Positions 4,694-44,224 of a stretch of 47,902 bases of DNA are shown here, piece by piece. The DNA comes from Gammaproteobacteria bacterium. GTDB taxonomy: Bacteria; Pseudomonadota; Gammaproteobacteria; SZUA-152. The DNA is taken from positions 1 through 47,902 of the forward strand of contig JAVVEP010000002.1 of NCBI GenBank assembly GCA_032250735.1, given 5' to 3'. Within the stretch, counting starts at the first letter, position 1. Every line of letters begins with the position of its first letter. The position numbers and the translations under genes were made by a program. Below the pieces are notes generated by a model. It was not told where the DNA came from and did not search any database. It saw nothing but the letters and a program-made list of their open reading frames with translations.

Positions 4694-6270
4694 CGGACGC
4701 GGCAGAGGTCGAAGTAAAAGGTAAAGCCGGTATGCCAGCCGACACAACCAAAGCCCTGAACTGGGCTCCGGGCTGGTATCCGACGGTGCTTATCTTTGGG
4801 GTTTCCCTGCTCGTATTGGGGGCCGTGTTCTGGCCGGTGTATCGCGATATCGTGGTCATCTGGTGGCGGGCCGAAACCTACGCCCACGGCTTTTTGATTC
4901 TGCCCATCGTGGGTTATCTCCTGTGGCTAAAACGCGCCGATCTGGCCCCGCTCGCACCGCGACCGGCACCCCTGGCGGCGCTGTTGATGGTATTGCCGGC
5001 CCTGCTCTGGCTGCTGGCGAATGCCGCCCAGGTCGCCGCAGCCGAACAGCTGGCCGTTGTGCTGATGATACCGATACTGGTGTGGGTGGTTTTTGGCACC
5101 GCCGTGCTGCGCCGCATCCTGTTCCCCCTGGCCTATCTGCTGTTTGCGGTACCGCTGGGGGATTTTCTGGTCGGCCCCCTGCAGGACGTCACCGCCGTGT
5201 TCACGGTCTGGGCCTTACAGCTGACCGGCATCCCCGTTTATCTCGAAGGACGCTTCTTCTATATACCGACCGGCGCGTTTGAAGTGGCCGAGGCCTGTAG
5301 CGGCATACGCTACCTGATCGCCTCCCTGGCCCTCGGCACCCTCTATGCCTACCTGAATTATGTCAGCCTGCAGCGGCGGCTGATCTTTGTCGCGCTGGCG
5401 ATCATCGTGCCCATCATCGCCAACGGCCTGCGCGCCTACGGCATCGTGATGCTGGCGCATCTCAGCGATTACACCATCGCGGTGGGGGTCGATCACCTCA
5501 TCTACGGCTGGCTGTTCTTTGGCGTGGTCATCATGCTGCTGTTCTGGGTGGGCTCGTTCTTCCGCGAGGATCTGGCGCCGCAACCGGACCACGCCGAAAT
5601 CAATACACAGGCCACCACGGCGGTACAGGCGCACGAGGTAAAGCGGTTAGCGTTGTGGGCCGCGCTGACCCTCAGCATCGCGGCGAGCGCCCCCGGATTT
5701 GCCGCCTGGATGGACGCCCGCAGCGCAGCGGCGCCGCTCAGCGCGGTCACCCTGCCGCAGGGGACGGGCGAGTGGGCGGGGCCCTTCGCGACCAGCAGCC
5801 CATGGCGCCCGCATTTCGTGGGCGCGCAGGAACAGCGTGTCGAATACCGCAAACAGGGACAGCGGGTAGAGGTCTACCTGGCCTATTACCCGAGTCAGGA
5901 CAAGGAGGCCGAACTCATTAACTGGCATAACGCGGTGTTTGATTCGGAGCGCTCCCAGCGTCTGGCCGGGGCAGCCGCTCAGGCGCGCCTGCCCAACGCG
6001 GCGAGCTGGCCGGTATTCGAAACACGCCTGCTGACGGGTGACGATTCGCGACTGGTATGGCACTGGTATGAGATCGATGGTGCTGCCACGGTGAGTCGGG
6101 TGTGGGCCAAGGCCTACGCCGCCCGCAGTCGCCTCCTGGGCTCGCGGACCGGCTCGGTGGCCTGGGTGCTATCGACCGAATATTCACTGGGCGCCGAACA
6201 GGGTGCGGCGGTGATGGAAGACTTCCTTGGCAGCATGTTGCCCCAGTTGCGGGAGGCGGTGCAGCAATGA
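4690..6270 (+). CDS. xrtA: Exosortase A fused to EpsI domain
   Basis: An inner-membrane transpeptidase-like enzyme that recognises the C-terminal PEP-CTERM signal of exported proteins, cleaves it and probably attaches the protein to a surface carrier. The ATG at 4690 overlaps the previous stop (ATGA), giving 526 aa; the frame is open further upstream, but those codons fall inside the previous gene. Residues about 30-330 form a multi-span membrane domain with the exosortase triad: C203 in EACSGIR, R248 in ANGLRAYG and H269 in DHLIYGW. Residues about 345-526 form an EpsI (DUF3485) domain with LINWHNAVFD-like and VWHWYEIDG motifs. The fusion is common for XrtA. Its TGA overlaps the next ATG. The likely local substrate is the PEP-CTERM protein at 34164. 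Confidence 0.96.
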   Translation: MTDAAEVEVKGKAGMPADTTKALNWAPGWYPTVLIFGVSLLVLGAVFWPVYRDIVVIWWRAETYAHGFLILPIVGYLLWLKRADLAPLAPRPAPLAALLMVLPALLWLLANAAQVAAAEQLAVVLMIPILVWVVFGTAVLRRILFPLAYLLFAVPLGDFLVGPLQDVTAVFTVWALQLTGIPVYLEGRFFYIPTGAFEVAEACSGIRYLIASLALGTLYAYLNYVSLQRRLIFVALAIIVPIIANGLRAYGIVMLAHLSDYTIAVGVDHLIYGWLFFGVVIMLLFWVGSFFREDLAPQPDHAEINTQATTAVQAHEVKRLALWAALTLSIAASAPGFAAWMDARSAAAPLSAVTLPQGTGEWAGPFATSSPWRPHFVGAQEQRVEYRKQGQRVEVYLAYYPSQDKEAELINWHNAVFDSERSQRLAGAAAQARLPNAASWPVFETRLLTGDDSRLVWHWYEIDGAATVSRVWAKAYAARSRLLGSRTGSVAWVLSTEYSLGAEQGAAVMEDFLGSMLPQLREAVQQ

Positions 6271-34163: not shown

Positions 34164-34922
34164 ATGTTCTCAAGGACAACAAGATTATTATTTTGGCTTT
34201 TTGCATCATTTGTGCTGGCCCTGCCAGCATTCTCGAGTCCAATAACGGTGCAGTCTGTATTGTTTGATTGTGACGGCGATGTGCTGACCGTTGGGCCTCT
34301 GTATGGTACGTCTGGAAATTGTTCTTCACCGATGCAAAATGGGACAGCCGATGGGTCTGGATCTCTTGTGAACGGCGACTTCACGATACTTGAGTTTGAA
34401 ACCGATCCGTCCGACCCGATAGGAGACGGAATTGATGAATGGACTAGAGGTATCTTTGATTTTCGAAGCGATGCAGCCTATTCAGACTTCAGCAACCTGT
34501 TGGCAGAACCTCACGGAAAAATCTTTGCCGCAACGTTATCTCTCGTACTAACGCCGAGGGACTTTCTCTTCACTACCGACCAATTCAACCTTGAGAACTC
34601 CACGTTCATTGGAAGCCCTCAGATTTCCGATCTATTCAATGATCCGGCAAATCCACTGTTATCGAATAATATTTCGAAGATAGTAACGCTTGATTTGCTC
34701 AATTTTTATTCTCAACAACAACTCGAGAATTACCTCTCTGGCGGAATAGGTGATTTTGTCAATGATGGACGAATTTTACTGACGTATGGCGACGATGCGA
34801 TTGTATCGGGTGCAGCTTTACGGATTACGGCAAACATTCCGGAGCCAGGTACACTTGCCTTATTTTCTCTGGGCTTGCTGTCAGTCTTTGCAGTTCGTCG
34901 CAGAAAACTCAAAAATGGCTAG
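34164..34922 (+). CDS. PEP-CTERM sorting-domain protein
   Basis: A 252-aa exported protein. It has a signal peptide (about 1-24, cut near AFSS) and a C-terminal sorting signal: IPEPGT (225-230), a hydrophobic stretch, and the basic tail RRRKLKNG. These three parts are the recognition signal of exosortase A. The middle region is acidic, with no recognised catalytic domain (DCDGDVLTVGPLYG, EFETDPSDPIGDGIDEW). A strong AAGGAGG ribosome site lies 9 bp before the ATG. It is the only protein with this signal in the window. It is flanked by duplicated repeats and a transposase remnant, consistent with gain by recombination. It is probably anchored to or released with the exopolysaccharide. Confidence 0.92.
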   Translation: MFSRTTRLLFWLFASFVLALPAFSSPITVQSVLFDCDGDVLTVGPLYGTSGNCSSPMQNGTADGSGSLVNGDFTILEFETDPSDPIGDGIDEWTRGIFDFRSDAAYSDFSNLLAEPHGKIFAATLSLVLTPRDFLFTTDQFNLENSTFIGSPQISDLFNDPANPLLSNNISKIVTLDLLNFYSQQQLENYLSGGIGDFVNDGRILLTYGDDAIVSGAALRITANIPEPGTLALFSLGLLSVFAVRRRKLKNG

Positions 34923-35695: not shown

Positions 35696-36931
35696 TTACA
35701 CCAATACCTCCACCGCAGCAGGATGGCTTAAAAAGCCCTGCGGGCTTGCACTAAACCCATACGCTCCGGATTGCAGTACCACGACCAGGTCATCGATATC
35801 GGCCCTGGGCAGTTCCATCTTGTCCGCCAGTATGTCCAGTGGCGTACAGAGCGGGCCGACAACATTGGCGATTTCGGTGTCGCTGGCGCCCAGTCGGTTG
35901 CCGATCAGTACCGGGTAGTTTTTGCGGATGATCTGGCCGAAATTGCCGGACGCGGCCAGGTGGTGGTGCATGCCGCCATCGGTGATGAGAAATACCTGTT
36001 CCCTTGATATCTTGCGATCCACCACCTTGCAGACGTAGACGCCGGCCTCGCCGATGAGGTAACGCCCCAGCTCAATGATGACCTTTGCCTCGGGCAGTCG
36101 TTTGGCCTTTTCTATCAGCAGTTCGTTCAGCCGGTCACCGATCGGCTGGATGTCCAGTGGCTGTTCGCCGGGAAAATAGGGGATGCCGAAACCGCCGCCG
36201 ATGTTGAGTTTCCTGACCGGCGTGGGCGCGGACTCGGCGAGGCGGTAGGCGAGGGCAAAGGTCTTTTCCTGGGCCTCGATGATGGCCTCCGGTTTGAGGT
36301 TCTGGGAACCGCTGAAGATGTGAAAGCCTTGAAAATCCAGGTCGAGTTCGCCGATGCGCCGCAGCACGTCGGGCACACGCTCCGCGTCGATGCCAAACTG
36401 TTTGGGGCCGCCGCCCATCTTCATGCCGGATGCCTTGAGTTCGAAGTCCGGATTGACGCGTATCGCGACCCTGGGGCGGATGCCCTGTTGTTCTCCCAGG
36501 CGGGCCGCCCTTTCCAGTTCGGTTTCGGATTCAAGATTCAGGGTGACGCCGGCGGCGATCGCGCTGCCGATCTCCCATGCCGATTTTCCGGGGCCGGCGA
36601 AGCTGATGTGGTTGGCGGACATGGTGGTATCCAGGGCTACCGGCAGTTCGCCGCCGGAGGCCAGGTCGAAGCCATCCACCAGCCCGGCCAGGTGTTGCAC
36701 CACGGCGGGCATGGGGTTGGCCTTGATGGCGTAGTGCAGGCGTATTTCGGCGGGCAGGTGGGCGCGCAGGTGGGCGACCCGCTCGGTGATTTTTGCGCGG
36801 TCGTAGGCGTAGAAGGGCGTCTGTCCGACCCGGGCGGCGAGGCGGGTGAGCGGCACGCCGCCGATCATGAGTTCGCCGTTTTCGACCGGAAAGGCCTCCA
36901 GTACCGAGGTCGCGTGGCGGGGTTTACTCAT
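35696..36931 (-). CDS. PLP-dependent decarboxylase, exosortase A system-associated
   Basis: A 411-aa fold-type III PLP enzyme of the ornithine/diaminopimelate decarboxylase superfamily, TIGR03099 type. K70 in HYAIKANPMP binds PLP; HISFAGPGKS, GFHIFSGSQN, LNIGGGFGIPYFPGE and the C-terminal LQSGAYGFSASPQGFLSHP are further family motifs. It probably decarboxylates an amino acid, perhaps held on the ACP or activated by the ligase next to it; the substrate is unknown. The ligase gene lies 168 bp upstream on the same strand. Its 3' end abuts a REP-like core and has been copied to 32929-33002. Confidence 0.92.
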   Translation of the reverse strand: MSKPRHATSVLEAFPVENGELMIGGVPLTRLAARVGQTPFYAYDRAKITERVAHLRAHLPAEIRLHYAIKANPMPAVVQHLAGLVDGFDLASGGELPVALDTTMSANHISFAGPGKSAWEIGSAIAAGVTLNLESETELERAARLGEQQGIRPRVAIRVNPDFELKASGMKMGGGPKQFGIDAERVPDVLRRIGELDLDFQGFHIFSGSQNLKPEAIIEAQEKTFALAYRLAESAPTPVRKLNIGGGFGIPYFPGEQPLDIQPIGDRLNELLIEKAKRLPEAKVIIELGRYLIGEAGVYVCKVVDRKISREQVFLITDGGMHHHLAASGNFGQIIRKNYPVLIGNRLGASDTEIANVVGPLCTPLDILADKMELPRADIDDLVVVLQSGAYGFSASPQGFLSHPAAVEVLV

Positions 36932-38695: not shown

Positions 38696-38776
38696 GCTCT
38701 GTTCACAGGTGATCATTAAGTGCCACAGTTTACTGGGAATTTTCCGCGAAAAGTAGTGACCTGCCCGCTGCGGCCG

Positions 38777-39535
38777 ATGGTCTGGGCCGGTCTGGCGGTG
38801 GTCTTTATGCTGTTCAGCGCACCCGGGGTGTCCGGTCTGCCGGAGACCCTGGCGCTGGTCAAGCCGGGCGTGGTGGCCGTGGGCACGATGCAAAAGACCC
38901 GCCGACCGCCCAGCAAATTTATGGGCACGGGTTTTGTGGTGGGTGACGGGCGCTATGTGATCACCAATGCCCACGTCATCCCTGAGCTATTGGACGGGGA
39001 AGAGCTGGAGCAACTGGCCATTTTTGCCGGCCGCGGCCGGCAGCCGGAAATACGCACGGCAGAGGCGGTGGCCATGGATCCCGAACACGACCTGGCCATC
39101 CTCCGTATCGAGGGCGACCCCTTGCCGGCCCTGCGCCTGGGCGATTCCTCCCGGGTGCGCGAAGGACAGTCCATCGCCTTCACCGGTTTTCCCATTGGCA
39201 CGGTCCTGGGCCTGTTTCCGGTGACCCACCGCGGCATCATCTCCACCATCACGCCCATCGTGCTGCCCTCGCAGTCATCGCGCCAGCTGAGCACCGCGCA
39301 GATCAAACGCCTGAAGGCCCCGTATGACGTCTTTCAACTGGATGCCACGGCCTATCCAGGCAACAGCGGCAGCCCCGTCTATGACCAGAAAACCGGCCAC
39401 GTACTGGGTGTTCTGAACATGGTGTTTGTAAAAGAGACCAAAGAGGCCGTCCTGGAAAAACCCAGCGGCATCTCCTATGCGATTCCGGTTGAGCACGCCA
39501 GGCAGTTGCTTGAGTCCGTTTTAGTGAAGGAATGA
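38777..39535 (+). CDS. Exported trypsin-like serine protease
   Basis: A 252-aa S1-family (DegP/HtrA-like) protease domain without a PDZ domain. The catalytic triad is visible: H66 in VITNAHVIPE, D105 in DPEHDLAILRI and S197 in YPGNSGSPVYD. The ATG at 38777 gives a typical short signal peptide (about 1-20, GVSG). A GTG at 38720 would lengthen the N-terminus by 19 residues and leave only 24 bp to the divergent ligase start, so it is less favoured. It probably acts in the periplasm. The location between the ligase and the repeat region hints at a role in envelope protein processing tied to the XrtA locus, but it may be independent. Confidence 0.87.
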   Translation: MVWAGLAVVFMLFSAPGVSGLPETLALVKPGVVAVGTMQKTRRPPSKFMGTGFVVGDGRYVITNAHVIPELLDGEELEQLAIFAGRGRQPEIRTAEAVAMDPEHDLAILRIEGDPLPALRLGDSSRVREGQSIAFTGFPIGTVLGLFPVTHRGIISTITPIVLPSQSSRQLSTAQIKRLKAPYDVFQLDATAYPGNSGSPVYDQKTGHVLGVLNMVFVKETKEAVLEKPSGISYAIPVEHARQLLESVLVKE

Positions 39536-40196: not shown

Positions 40197-40529
40197 TTAG
40201 TCGATTTCGATTAAGGTTTCGCCATGCTGTAAAGCTTCGATGATCCGGGGTAAGAGGTGTCCAAACCAGTTAAGTAATGTATTTTTTCGGGTGTTGCCGG
40301 TTCTTATCCACACAATAGTGGGATACGGCTCATTATGAAGGTTACGTCGCTGGGCAAAATCCTCATCTTTCGTATTGATGGTGGCTTTGCTGGATTTGGC
40401 TGTTTCCCAGATATCACTATCCGGAGCATCAAGCAGCCCTATGTCTGCAACATGTTGGGCATCGTGTCCTTGTGATGCCAGCTGGCGGGCGAGGGCTGGG
40501 GGTAGCTGCGCGTCTACCAAAAATCGCAT
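40197..40529 (-). CDS. DUF5615 PIN-like toxin
   Basis: A 110-aa protein with the DUF5615 signature. MRFLVDAQLPPALARQL (1-17) carries the first acidic residue, GHDAQHVADIGL follows, and INTKDEDFAQRR (about 51-62) carries the DxDF motif. In relatives the pattern IVTKDxDF lies at the same place. It is predicted to be a PIN-domain-like nuclease acting as the toxin of a type II toxin-antitoxin pair. Its start overlaps the stop of the upstream DUF433 gene (TGATG), as expected for a coupled pair. Confidence 0.88.
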   Translation of the reverse strand: MRFLVDAQLPPALARQLASQGHDAQHVADIGLLDAPDSDIWETAKSSKATINTKDEDFAQRRNLHNEPYPTIVWIRTGNTRKNTLLNWFGHLLPRIIEALQHGETLIEID

Positions 40530-40753
40530 CAGGCTACATGCAGAGTGGTGTGATCATTCTGGCGGGCGGCAAATTCCAGGACGGCTGTGATGTCTTCGGG
40601 TTCGAGGTAGGGATAATCCTCGATGATCTCCTCGCGTGTGGCGCCGGCGGCGAGCAGGTCAAGAATATCTTTTACTCGTATACGCAGCCCCCTTATGGCA
40701 GGCCGACCGCCACAGTGGTCAGCGGATATGGTGATGCGGTGTAATTCACTCAT
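40529..40753 (-). CDS. DUF433 antitoxin
   Basis: A 74-aa DUF433 protein. HRITISADHCGGRPAIRGLR (about 5-24), with RVKDILDLLAAG and EEIIEDYPYLEPEDITAVLEFAA (about 41-63), matches the small winged-helix-like DNA-binding family that usually precedes DUF5615 genes. It probably binds the toxin and its own promoter. The pair is surrounded by REP-like repeats, as is common for mobile toxin-antitoxin modules. Confidence 0.88.
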   Translation of the reverse strand: MSELHRITISADHCGGRPAIRGLRIRVKDILDLLAAGATREEIIEDYPYLEPEDITAVLEFAARQNDHTTLHVA

Positions 40754-41232: not shown

Positions 41233-41826
41233 ATGAGTTCGAAAGATTCCAATAAACAGATCGATCCGGTAATCCCGTCCTCCGATGAAACCCCTACAGC
41301 GCAGGCCGATACCGGCAAGCGCCGGCTGCTCAAAGGGCTCATGGCCACTGCGCCGGTGGTCATGGCGGTGTCCAGCAAGCCCGCCCTGGCGAATTTCTGT
41401 ACGGTTTCGGGGTTTTTGTCGGGCAATCTGTCGCATCATGACGCCGGTCAGCGATGCGGGGGGAAAAGCCCGGGTTACTGGAAAAATAACTATGACCGCC
41501 ATTACGACCCCGAGGCGTTTAAACAGGTCAAGTTTAGACAGGAGTTCGGGGTGCTGTGGTATGGCAGCGGGGGCCCATGGGATGCCGATATCAGTTTTCT
41601 CACGATACTGAATTTTGAAGGTAACGAAGATGCCTATAAATTTGGTTTCCACGCGGTCGCGGCCTATCTCAACGCCGTGAATATTTCCGGATACGGCCTG
41701 ACGCCGAATGATGTTGCCGAGATGGTTGCCCAGATTGCCGGTAGCGGTGTGTACACCCATCCCGGAACGGGTAAGACGCTGGACGCACAGGATTTTGTTG
41801 AGTTTATAGAACAGACCTATCATTAA
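41233..41826 (+). CDS. Tat-type exported protein of unknown function, possible HPr-rel-A substrate
   Basis: A 197-aa protein not recognised as any named enzyme. The N-terminus is a 28-residue polar leader, then K29RRLLKG and the hydrophobic stretch LMATAPVVMAVSS ending in ALA (51-53), which matches a twin-arginine signal with likely cleavage after residue 53. The mature part starts NFCTVSGFLSGNLS, has Cys56 and Cys75, and the segment CGGKSPGYWKNN (75-86), then a mostly helical, acidic region. AGGGA lies 8 bp before the ATG. It is 23 bp upstream of the PqqD-like gene on the same strand, so it is probably in the same operon. The long leader before the Tat motif and its position make it a candidate substrate of the cassette; this is inference. 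Confidence 0.75.
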   Translation: MSSKDSNKQIDPVIPSSDETPTAQADTGKRRLLKGLMATAPVVMAVSSKPALANFCTVSGFLSGNLSHHDAGQRCGGKSPGYWKNNYDRHYDPEAFKQVKFRQEFGVLWYGSGGPWDADISFLTILNFEGNEDAYKFGFHAVAAYLNAVNISGYGLTPNDVAEMVAQIAGSGVYTHPGTGKTLDAQDFVEFIEQTYH

Positions 41827-41849
41827 CCTGAATCCGGCGGCTGTTTCTG

Positions 41850-42185
41850 GTGACGAGTGCCAATGAACGCTGGAGTCTGGATTCATCCTCCCGCTATCAT
41901 TTCCGTGAGTGGGAGGATGGCGTCACCGTTTTTCTGGAGGGTGAGAACAGCATTTTTCTCATCAATGAGTTTGCGGCCTACCTGCTGGGGAAATTCCGTC
42001 ACGGGCAACACTCTTTTCAGGAATTGCTGGAGCTGGTGCGTGTTGATTATGCCAGTGACCCGGTCGATACCTCCGTTCATACCCCCGTCAACATCAACAC
42101 CCCCATCGAAACATTAGCCCCGCTATTGGAAAATACCCTGGCCGGTCTCAGCCAGCGCGGTATCCTTATTCGAACCCGCCTGTGA
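41850..42185 (+). CDS. PqqD-family protein, HPr-rel-A system
   Basis: A 111-aa protein with the PqqD fold. The opening WSLDSSSRYHFREWEDGVTV (8-27), the FLINEFAAYLLGKF stretch (about 35-48) and LSQRGILI at the end match the small winged-helix domain that serves as a RiPP recognition element in many peptide-modification systems. The start is a GTG (41850); no ATG lies in frame nearby. Its stop overlaps the GTG of the kinase gene by 4 bp (GTGA). By analogy with PqqD and lasso-peptide B1 proteins it may bind a leader sequence and deliver the substrate to the kinase or nucleotidyltransferase. That function is unproven for this family. Confidence 0.85.
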   Translation: MTSANERWSLDSSSRYHFREWEDGVTVFLEGENSIFLINEFAAYLLGKFRHGQHSFQELLELVRVDYASDPVDTSVHTPVNINTPIETLAPLLENTLAGLSQRGILIRTRL

Positions 42186-43111
42186 AACTGTCTGAGCTAT
42201 CAGCCGCTGAAATTTACTATCGGTTTTCCACTCGGGGCGTCTTTCTCAAGACAGGGCCTCTGATCTTTTCCATTCGCTCGACCCTTCCGCAGGTTGTCGA
42301 CACGGTGCAACGTCTCTACGGTGCCTATACCGTGGCGGACAGCGAGGACTTTGCGGATTTTTATGTGGAGCTGAAACAGCCCGGTGGTCTGCGCAAGTGG
42401 TATCACCCCCAGGTGCTGTTTGATTTTGATGGTCGTATTCCGTTTAAGCCGCTGCCACTGGCGCAGGCCTTTCCCATGCTGGAGTGGGGGATGAACTGGT
42501 GCATCGCCAACCATTGCCATAACTGGCTGATTATCCATTCCGCGGTGGTGGAGAAGAACGGCCAGGGCATTATCCTACCGGCCCCGCCGGGTTCTGGGAA
42601 AAGCACACTGTGTGCGGCCCTGGTGGGCCGGGGCTGGCGTCTGTTGTCGGATGAGCTGGCGCTGATCGATCCGGAGTGCGGCAAACTGATACCTATGCCA
42701 CGACCGGTGGGACTGAAAAATGATTCCATTGAGATTATGCAGGCTTTTCTGCCGAAGGCCCGCTTCGGGCCGGCCTGCAAGGATACCCGCAAGGGTACCG
42801 TTGCCCACATGGCGGCAGCGGACGCCGATTGTGTGAATGCCCAGTGGGTGACGCCCAGCTGGGTCGTCTATCCACAATACGTGGCGGCGAGCGAGGCGGT
42901 GCTACAGCCACACCCCAGGGGCGACAGTCTGGTGCAGCTGGCCTCAAACTCCTTCAATAACCAGCTGTTGGGTCGGCAGGGTTTCGAGACCCTGGCAAAG
43001 CTGATCGACACCACGGCGTCGTTCGATTTTCGCTATTCGCAGTTAGAAGACGCGATCCGCATATTCGAAGACCTTTCCTCTTCTTCGCCTGTTCCCCAGG
43101 CCGTCGGGTGA
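42182..43111 (+). CDS. HprK-related kinase A
   Basis: A 309-aa P-loop protein related to HPr serine kinase/phosphorylase. The N-terminal half (about 1-115) is family-specific, with FDFDGRIPFKP and WGMNWCIANHCHNWLIIHSA. Walker A is PPGSGKST, with GSGKS at 137-141, and a Walker-B-like LLSDELALID (about 154-163) follows, as in HprK. The C-terminal part lacks the phosphorylase-specific loop in any clear form. The start is GTG, overlapping the PqqD stop by 4 bp. Expected activity is ATP-dependent phosphorylation of a protein or peptide; known lasso-peptide kinases of this kind phosphorylate a C-terminal Ser. The substrate here is unknown; no HPr gene is in the window. Confidence 0.9.
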   Translation: MKLSELSAAEIYYRFSTRGVFLKTGPLIFSIRSTLPQVVDTVQRLYGAYTVADSEDFADFYVELKQPGGLRKWYHPQVLFDFDGRIPFKPLPLAQAFPMLEWGMNWCIANHCHNWLIIHSAVVEKNGQGIILPAPPGSGKSTLCAALVGRGWRLLSDELALIDPECGKLIPMPRPVGLKNDSIEIMQAFLPKARFGPACKDTRKGTVAHMAAADADCVNAQWVTPSWVVYPQYVAASEAVLQPHPRGDSLVQLASNSFNNQLLGRQGFETLAKLIDTTASFDFRYSQLEDAIRIFEDLSSSSPVPQAVG

Positions 43112-43114
43112 GCC

Positions 43115-44224
43115 ATGTCGACTAACGCAACTAGTGTCCTGCTACGCGTGTTGCGAGACCCCGCGCAGGCGCAGGCATTTGGTCTGAAGGACTGGGATCT
43201 GTTGCTGCGCCAGGCGCGCCGCGCCGATCTGCTGGCAACCGTGTCCGGCCTGCTGCATGATGCCGGCGCCGATGAGAGCATCCCTGTCGCTGTGCGCCGT
43301 CACTTCACAGCGCATACGATGGTCGTGCAGGCCAACCAGACTGCGATCCGCTGGGAGGTGGCGCAGATCTATCGCGCGCTCGATGGCGTGAGTGCGCCGC
43401 CGATCCTGCTCAAGGGGGCGGCCTATGTGTTCGCCGGGCTGACGGCGGCGCAGGGGCGCATCTTTAACGATATTGATATTCTGGTGCCCAGGGCGGACAT
43501 CGACAGGGTGGAGCAGGCGCTGTTTCTGGCCGGCTGGTCCAGCGGGCATCTCGATGCCTATGACCAGAAATATTATCGTCGCTGGATGCATGAGTTGCCG
43601 CCGTTACAGCATATGCGACGCGGTACCGCGGTGGATGTGCATCACACCATTCTGCCGGTCACCGCCCACCTGAAACCCGATCCGCAAAAGCTGATGGCGG
43701 CGGCCATCACCGTTGCCGTGCGGGAGGATTTTTCGGTGCGGGTGCTGGCGCCGGTGGACCGGGTGCTGCATAGTGCGACCCATCTGTTCCATGAGGGTGA
43801 GTTCGATCATGGGTTGCGCGATCTCTTTGATCTGCACCGCCTGTTGATCGAGGCCTCATCACAGGACGATTTCTGGGAGGCGCTCATGCGGCGGGCGGTG
43901 GAGATGGACCTGGTGCAGCCGCTGTTTTATGCCACGCGCTATACCCATCGACTATTGCACACGCCGATTCCGGCGCATGTCCTGCAGCGATTGCAGGCTC
44001 AGTCGTCCAGCCGCTGGCTGGGTTGGCTGATGGATTTTTGTTATGCGCGGATGCTGGTCTCGGATCATGTCAGCTGCCGGCGGCGCTTCACCGGGCTGGC
44101 CGAGTACCTGCTGTTTGTGCGATCCCACTACCTACGCATGCCGTTGCGCCTGCTGGTGCCGCATCTGTTGCGCAAGGCCCTGCGGCGCGAGCCCGAAAGG
44201 CCGGATGATGAGGCGTTAAACTAG
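43115..44224 (+). CDS. Nucleotidyltransferase family protein (PF14907 type), HPr-rel-A cassette
   Basis: A 369-aa protein with a nucleotidyltransferase-like core. LLKGAAYVFAG (about 98-108) and RIFNDIDILVPR, with D119 and D121 as the metal-binding pair, define the active site. VDVHHTILP (about 175-183) would supply a third acidic residue. The C-terminal half is helical. This family occurs with PqqD-like proteins and HprK-like kinases, including in some lasso-peptide clusters, where it may add a nucleotide or sugar group to phosphate. The ATG at 43115 is 3 bp after the kinase stop, so the three genes are coupled. A hairpin follows its stop at 44231. Confidence 0.87.
   Translation: MSTNATSVLLRVLRDPAQAQAFGLKDWDLLLRQARRADLLATVSGLLHDAGADESIPVAVRRHFTAHTMVVQANQTAIRWEVAQIYRALDGVSAPPILLKGAAYVFAGLTAAQGRIFNDIDILVPRADIDRVEQALFLAGWSSGHLDAYDQKYYRRWMHELPPLQHMRRGTAVDVHHTILPVTAHLKPDPQKLMAAAITVAVREDFSVRVLAPVDRVLHSATHLFHEGEFDHGLRDLFDLHRLLIEASSQDDFWEALMRRAVEMDLVQPLFYATRYTHRLLHTPIPAHVLQRLQAQSSSRWLGWLMDFCYARMLVSDHVSCRRRFTGLAEYLLFVRSHYLRMPLRLLVPHLLRKALRREPERPDDEALN

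Follow-up and report, generated by a model that had tools for sequence, protein, structure and literature searches.

The stretch of DNA analysed here, referred to as the window, comprises 47,902 nucleotides (nt) of contig JAVVEP010000002.1 from a Gammaproteobacteria bacterium (GCA_032250735.1). At positions 41233-44224 it harbors four genes on the forward strand, encoding an exported protein with a signal of the twin-arginine translocation (Tat) type, here termed EXP, followed by a PqqD-like protein, an HprK-related kinase and a nucleotidyltransferase. The genes are tightly spaced: 23 nt lie between the first two, the second and third overlap by 4 nt, and 3 nt separate the last two. The open reading frames (ORFs) agree with the arrangement described in an earlier annotation made from the letters alone (the sequence-only reading). 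The genes and the segments of EXP are as follows, where RRE stands for the recognition element of ribosomally synthesized and post-translationally modified peptides (RiPPs).

41233..41826, + strand: EXP, Tat-type exported protein of 197 residues, type I, the proposed substrate (ORF; strong homologues adjoin cassettes)
41233..41391, + strand: EXP signal or leader, residues 1-53, with K29-R30-R31-L-L-K, a hydrophobic stretch and S48-K49-P50-A-L-A53 (columns conserved in 105 type I proteins)
41398..41457, + strand: EXP segment C56-x-x-S59-G-x-x-S63-G-N-x-S67...C75 with the candidate acceptor serines S63 and S59 (conservation in 105 type I proteins)
41470..41817, + strand: predicted EXP helical domain, residues 80-195, GYWKN ... 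HAVAAYLNA (AlphaFold2 model)
41850..42185, + strand: PqqD-like RRE protein of 111 residues (family TIGR04353 in relatives; modelled fold)
42182..43111, + strand: HprK-related kinase A of 309 residues, P-loop GSGKST (TIGR04352; alignment to HprK 1jb1)
43115..44224, + strand: PF14907 nucleotidyltransferase (NTP_transf_5) of 369 residues (PF14907; invariant residues)

Genes 2-4 are the named HPr-rel-A cassette (TIGR04352, TIGR04353, PF14907), the second of the four genes being assigned through its relatives and its modelled fold. The kinase scores 371.3 bits against TIGR04352 (HprK_rel_A; NCBIfam cut-off 200) and the fourth gene product 195 bits against PF14907 (Pfam cut-off 31.2). In the source genome, EXP and PF14907 each give a single match, and besides the cassette kinase there is one weak TIGR04352 match elsewhere (24.5 bits).

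Both enzymes retain their catalytic residues. In an alignment of 34 kinases (A1), the invariant positions include H119, G137, G139, K140, T142, D157 and E158, and HMMER aligns the kinase to HprK (1jb1, E 0.0016) with the histidine, the P-loop and the acidic pair in register. Among 24 aligned nucleotidyltransferases, two of them from the loci with a divergent kinase described below, K100-G101, R115, D119, D121, E133, D174 and H176 are invariant; D119-x-D121 plus D174 presumably constitutes the metal-binding set. These residues support the calls for the two enzymes in the sequence-only reading. Precedents come from lasso peptides, for which one report (PMC9266682) states that the kinases require a His-Lys-Asp-Asp set and that PadeK phosphorylates a C-terminal serine of a lasso precursor. 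In pseudomycoidin, PsmN has been linked to hexose addition on phosphoserine (PMC9266682, PMC7533575). Going by the lasso precedent (PMC9266682), the enzyme encoded at 43115 may add a sugar rather than a nucleotide.

The PqqD-like protein is predicted to have the winged-helix fold of a lasso B1-type RRE. Its model (mean predicted local distance difference test score, pLDDT, 85.7) finds as its best match TbiB1 with bound leader (5v1v; E 2.1e-3, template modelling scores 0.61/0.74, probability 1.00), followed among others by TfuB1 with leader (6jx3), NGO1945 (3dee) at rank 4 and other RRE proteins lower. A profile search against sequences of the PDB points the same way (TfuB1 4.6e-4, TbiB1 8.5e-3). 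Designed helical repeats (5h7c, 5cwh) outrank the lasso B1 proteins in that search; they cover the helical half only, in repeated short pieces, and were rejected as compositional. Of the 32 aligned family members (A4), 31 match TIGR04353, the lone miss being the window's own protein; PF05402 is matched by 12/32, NGO1945_C weakly by 9/32 and TIGR04248 by 1/32. The earlier assignment of this gene to the PqqD/RRE type is in accordance with the modelled fold and with these relatives.

Conservation in EXP was assessed with 105 type I proteins, after two of 107 had been excluded for over-extended starts. The most constant positions are S63 (100%), S59 (99%), R30 (98%), C56 (96%) and N147 (95%). At the K29 column 95% of the proteins have arginine, so that relatives read RR where the window reads KR, and at the K49 column 63% have arginine. 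Tat signals are defined by an S-R-R-x-F-L-K motif, a hydrophobic stretch and a basic residue ahead of the cleavage site. Judged by these features the type I family would qualify as Tat substrates, with KRRLLK as the window's own motif, and TatC is encoded in the genome. The Tat-type signal claimed in the sequence-only reading is therefore upheld for the general character of the N-terminus and less so for the twin itself, K29-R30 followed by R31. The leader length of 28 residues given there covers only the stretch ahead of the basic motif; cleavage would be expected after A53, close to which the signal probably ends.

In the AlphaFold2 model of EXP, residues 36-54 and 57-66 have pLDDT values below 50. 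Between residues 80 and 195, blocks of ten residues reach 84-94, except for 76 and 69 at 101-120 and 80 at the end. No relative of this domain was found in the PDB (Foldseek best E 1.6), and the highest VIA-align score was Z 3.0, reached over 64 residues; we claim neither a relative nor a new fold. No Pfam or NCBIfam family was found for EXP or 32 type I relatives (matches at chance level only, best E 0.0099 and 0.0042, one member each). Regular expressions detect a PGYW-like motif in 74/107 and an LNA-like motif in 58/107 type I proteins, so the mature domain is itself variable.

The association of the cassette kinase with an exported partner was surveyed in three sets of loci (our handles beginning with L denote loci, those beginning with G genomes). 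A draw of 369 genomes from the class contains 41 above the kinase cut-off, and together with two further genomes of the window's order they provide a first set of 43 loci, all of which were inspected. An exported gene with a twin-arginine leader occupies the slot beside PqqD in 42 of them; the sole miss (L076) has just 567 nt ahead of the kinase at a contig edge. These 42 partners comprise 33 of type I, the type of EXP, and nine of a second type, type II. Within the window's order, the full HprK_rel_A occurs in 3/24 genomes and an EXP homologue adjoins it in the same three. A genome scan provided the second set, the best 80 of at least 589 confirmed stretches and hence a sample biased to near relatives, in which 79/80 loci have a partner (78 matching the EXP profile in the slot and one, L115, another Tat-type protein); since four of the 80 duplicate loci of the first set, this amounts to 75/76 distinct loci. 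The nucleotidyltransferase is likewise present in 79/80, the missing one lying beyond a contig end. The third set stems from a phylum draw of 398 genomes with 61 above the kinase cut-off, 48 of these outside the class. Inspection covered 47 of the 48 (G544, on two contigs, was left out) and nine new class genomes, and a partner is present at 40/47 non-class loci (at L256 on the opposite strand) and at 9/9 class loci. Tat-type leaders were located in the partners of L278, L288, L296 and L096. In total, a twin-arginine-leader exported partner adjoins the kinase at 166/175 loci distinct by contig. One gene order is common to most class loci, and in some loci the nucleotidyltransferase lies on the opposite strand or separated.

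Malonomonas rubra (L120) also has a cassette, and its partner is of type I. We take this organism to be placed outside Pseudomonadota, which would suggest horizontal transfer.

In the reverse direction, a profile of 32 type I proteins (A2), built from members of the same 369-genome draw that it searched, gave 31 matches at E<=1e-35, and 31/31 adjoin a cassette kinase. The sequence-only reading had made its proposal depend on such co-occurrence, which is now found both ways; strong homologues of EXP lie at cassettes and not apart from them. The next-best match is an EXP paralogue (G317/L204) whose genome carries its cassette at another place. It adjoins a protein whose C-terminus reads as PEP-CTERM-like, and it is possible that the paralogue is a second substrate in trans. 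Apart from this paralogue, hardly any full-length homologue of EXP occurs outside cassettes. The remaining weaker matches cover mostly the leader region, many of them in short ORFs, or the mature domain alone. EXP-profile matches apart from cassettes, for which positions are those of each locus, are:

L204, 5908-7101, - strand: EXP paralogue, with the EXP part inside
L205, 4726-6150: GYWKN...LNA domain without Tat leader
L207, 5923-7812: GYWKN...LNA domain without Tat leader
L208, 2307-6290: GYWKN...LNA domain without Tat leader
L209, 1446-2315: GYWKN...LNA domain without Tat leader
L210, 2-622: GYWKN...LNA domain without Tat leader

All 40 non-class partners belong to type II, of which 49 proteins were considered. 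No mature sequence common to types I and II was seen, no systematic comparison having been made. In an alignment of 25 of the 49 (mean column identity 17%; L056 not included), invariance is confined to the columns of the two arginines and of a serine close to the C-terminus, and M1, P51, T55, G151 and C171 are near-invariant. The serine belongs to a C-x-x-S-[FLIV] pattern, found within the last 30 residues of 45/49 type II proteins, a count that does not represent 49 independent events because the sequences are related. In the controls, 2000 shuffles averaged 1.0 and never exceeded 6, and internal windows gave 0/124. A scan of 25 type II members against Pfam and NCBIfam revealed no family, stray weak matches including TAT_signal in one. 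The partners of L069 and L265, with 74 and 82 residues, consist of the leader and about 15-20 further residues which bear the type II C-terminal motif; for the one of L069, no NCBIfam family was found. From lineage to lineage the mature part is exchanged as a whole for non-orthologous sequence, whereas the leader and a serine are retained.

In other gene orders, a leader of this type is found again with the same kinds of enzymes. Short peptides of 56-149 residues carry a signal of the typical form S-R-R-x-F-[LIV]-[KR]...AP-[AV]-[IVL]-[LM]-T-L...A, and in 22/22 of them (two nearly identical) Gly-Ser follows behind the signal. Small Tat-leader peptides occur in numbers of up to three per locus. 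Eight short-peptide loci (L195, L197, L198, L199, L201, L329, L333, L337) harbor a divergent HprK-like kinase, and at 6/8, not L198 and L201, PqqD and a PF14907-like enzyme are present, the latter as a fragment only in L195 and L199. Three of the divergent kinases have sub-threshold TIGR04352 scores (49-85 bits, NCBIfam), and for two PqqD proteins from these loci the nearest NCBIfam models are those of lasso B1. Three short peptides scanned in NCBIfam gave no match over the cut-off and a weak TIGR02811 match in one. Peptides with Gly-Ser after the signal include:

L195, 5656-5853, 6140-6373 and 6625-6885, - strand: three short Tat-leader peptides
L197, 5976-6200: short Tat-leader peptide
L329, 5741-6187: short Tat-leader peptide
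L333, 1964-2233: short Tat-leader peptide
L337, 5545-5712: short Tat-leader peptide

A profile of the leader only (A6) served as a control for chance Tat likeness, with up to 21 candidates scored per genome. At E<=1e-3 it gave at least 67 matches in 51/369 genomes. Of the 54 matches at E<=1e-5, which are not all independent because the profile contains members of the cassette-partner and short-peptide groups, 33 lie in cassette slots and 11 beside related kinase loci. Nine are orphans, of which eight come from genomes where a locus of this kind is present at another site. The remaining 1/54 (L336) reads like a Tat peptide of a formate dehydrogenase region; of the 13 weaker matches some were inspected. 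Ordinary Tat substrates must be many in the same genomes, yet the matches to this profile lie mostly at kinase loci.

By its gene content the window belongs to the exosortase A / PEP-CTERM type of region, with matches to TIGR03019, TIGR03087, TIGR03108, TIGR03101 and TIGR03098, and its further features are:

4795..5568, + strand: exosortase A (XrtA), outside the operon (TIGR03109, 351 bits)
34164-34922: PEP-CTERM protein
38720-39535: trypsin-like protease (PF13365), upstream of the cassette
40197-40753, - strand: pair of DUF5615 (PIN-like) and DUF433 genes, which we take to resemble a toxin-antitoxin pair

XrtA above the cut-off was found in 35/41 cassette genomes versus 38/328 others (Fisher p 1.4e-22, with genomes treated as independent), and three of the six cassette genomes without it have a sub-threshold exosortase. 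Since the cassette goes with exosortase A genomes, a surface or matrix role is likely; attachment of the exported protein to polysaccharide is speculation. Near 118 cassettes, a galE-like gene was found in 22 cases, an acyl-CoA ligase in 10 and the gene at 35696-36931 in 6. The window's other genes, protease and galE aside, are seldom near cassettes. Membership of the cassette in an exosortase gene cluster was thus rejected, and the link to exosortase A is one at the level of genomes, not of operons. The protease, found near 43/118 cassettes, was considered as a dedicated part and rejected on its spread through the order: close, nearly full-length homologues occur in 19/24 order genomes, 16 of these without the full kinase.

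On this basis, we think it probable that the four genes constitute a leader-guided modification system with EXP as its substrate, modified before Tat export. Such a system was the proposal of the sequence-only reading, and it gains from the linkage together with the identities of RRE protein, kinase and nucleotidyltransferase, with a leader longer than stated there. EXP is the likely target because it is a near-constant neighbour with a related signal and a strictly kept serine. Judging from fold and leader conservation, the Tat-type signal of EXP would double as the leader bound by the PqqD-like RRE protein, which would present EXP to the HprK-type kinase. To go by its family and the invariant serine, the kinase would phosphorylate a conserved serine shortly after the signal, either S63 or S59 of the motif C-x2-3-S-G-x-x-S-G-N; for type II partners the site would be the serine of C-x-x-S-[FLI] in the C-terminal tail. 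Onto this phosphoserine the nucleotidyltransferase may subsequently add a nucleotidyl group or a sugar. Tat would then export the modified EXP, its probable destination being the cell surface or matrix of bacteria with exosortase A.

A wider reading is offered tentatively, our view of it being somewhat closer to doubt than to belief. Tat signals might double as RiPP-type leaders in a widespread system of RRE, HprK-type kinase and nucleotidyltransferase, in which proteins or small peptides receive a phospho-linked group on a single conserved serine ahead of Tat export. The system would span at least three precursor classes (SGN behind the signal, C-x-x-S at the C-terminus, Gly-Ser behind the signal), and exosortase A bacteria could use the group as a handle for joining an exported protein to extracellular polysaccharide.

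Several observations weigh against a leader-guided modification system. The window's own members are atypical: EXP has KR in place of the twin arginines, and the PqqD-like protein has no NCBIfam or Pfam match at E<=1. Furthermore, the linkage has exceptions. L104 has kinase and nucleotidyltransferase alone, without EXP and PqqD, and no recognised partner was found near the kinase in 6/47 non-class loci. One of these, L282, keeps PqqD; near the kinases of the other five (L257, L258, L264, L270, L273), neither PqqD nor an exported partner was found, and four of the five have a nucleotidyltransferase match. A seventh non-class locus without partner (L286) is at a contig edge. The mature domain alone, without leader, occurs in five proteins (E 3e-24 to 6e-13), in whose stretches (L205, L207, L208, L209, L210) the kinase and nucleotidyltransferase profiles found no match, and there is a sixth, weaker match of this kind in G270. 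In type II, the C-x-x-S-[FLIV] pattern was fixed after the sequences had been viewed, and L056, L058, L077 and L084 are without such a tail as written. Nine type II loci (L274-L280, L288, L289) have a leader variant ending ...SIRPALAQ or near, and the leader profile gave no score for either of the two variant proteins tried (L278, L288). The position of the candidate serine varies among the partner classes. Finally, the linkage could stem from an ancient operon instead of a relation between enzyme and substrate.

Proteins of the TorD type are Tat proofreading chaperones for their clients, and the PqqD-like protein might serve EXP in this manner. Kinase and nucleotidyltransferase would then have another target, for instance an intermediate (lipid or sugar) in the polysaccharide pathway of exosortase A, and EXP would be a matrix protein made alongside. 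A leader that is Tat-like across all partner classes, the preference of the cassette for exosortase A genomes (35/41 vs 38/328) and the galE-like gene near 22/118 cassettes are in line with such a role. We nevertheless regard it as unlikely: the kinase belongs to the HprK type, whose targets are protein serines, and in lasso clusters enzymes of these kinds act on the precursor (PMC9266682). Moreover, chaperoning needs no invariant serines outside the signal, even at the C-terminus of type II, and partners with scarcely any mature part exist (L069, L265).

Less probable still is a regulatory phosphorylation of EXP, reversible as in HPr, with a nucleotidyltransferase which acts on the kinase or the PqqD-like protein. 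Kinases of the HprK family can be bifunctional kinase/phosphorylases, and this, the conservation of kinase and nucleotidyltransferase residues within each family and the loci with a nucleotidyltransferase gene on the opposite strand or at a distance would all suit regulation. The presence of the nucleotidyltransferase at 79/80 named loci, with a contig end at the only miss, argues against this, as does the nucleotidyltransferase-like enzyme of pseudomycoidin, which PMC9266682 credits with modifying a precursor phosphoserine.

That the exported gene is just a conserved neighbour carried in a stable operon, for which the single gene order in most class loci and the general point that linkage alone proves no interaction can be cited, is very improbable, as full-length homologues off the cassette are nearly absent, leader and serine persist while the mature part is replaced, and the leader recurs with the divergent set of kinase, PqqD and nucleotidyltransferase in different gene orders.

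If a leader-guided modification system is correct, one signal peptide would have two uses, directing export and guiding modification, tailoring by kinase and nucleotidyltransferase would extend from lasso peptides to exported proteins, and both would be linked to the polysaccharide biology of exosortase A. For HPr-rel-A, curated family names exist and no target was found described; the near-obligate partner makes its function experimentally addressable, and the cassette hosts include the culturable genera Massilia, Thiobacillus and Noviherbaspirillum.

Compared with known systems, the locus shares genes 2-4 (kinase, PqqD family, PF14907) with the HPr-rel-A cassette, for which no target is described in the openly available literature searched, subscription papers and preprints being outside this coverage. 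It differs in the exported partner, the leader and the conserved serine, for which the scanned members gave no match to a model of NCBIfam or Pfam, stray weak ones aside. HprK has the same H-x20-K-x16-D spacing and P-loop; here E158 stands at the second Asp of the pair, about 54 residues align, and the score is 24 bits versus the TIGR00679 cut-off of 240. Regarding SynChlorMet (ScmC, ScmD), the kinase matches TIGR04249 (ScmC) at 8.6e-9 with 35 bits, far under the cut-off of 125, and the single TIGR04248 match concerns one of 32 PqqD proteins. RiPP precursors are short, with a leader and a core that is modified; the partners here have a leader and an invariant serine outside it, and most of them are long, those of L069 and L265 short. 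The lasso tailoring sets (B1 RRE; the kinases PadeK, ThcoK and PsmK; PsmN) contain the same three enzyme kinds, their likely site is a serine outside the leader, as here, and TbiB1 and TfuB1 are nearest to the RRE model. No lasso B2 peptidase or C cyclase is among the four genes, the search for B2 having been confined to these. The window's two asparagine-synthase-like proteins score 278 and 140 bits, compared with the 525 of the lasso cyclase model; over its cut-off, the former matches TIGR03108, the XrtA amidotransferase. Unlike lasso precursors, most partners here are exported proteins that bear a Tat signal and are considerably longer than 100 residues. Tailoring by RRE, kinase and nucleotidyltransferase is of a known kind, and what would be new is its application to Tat-exported proteins.

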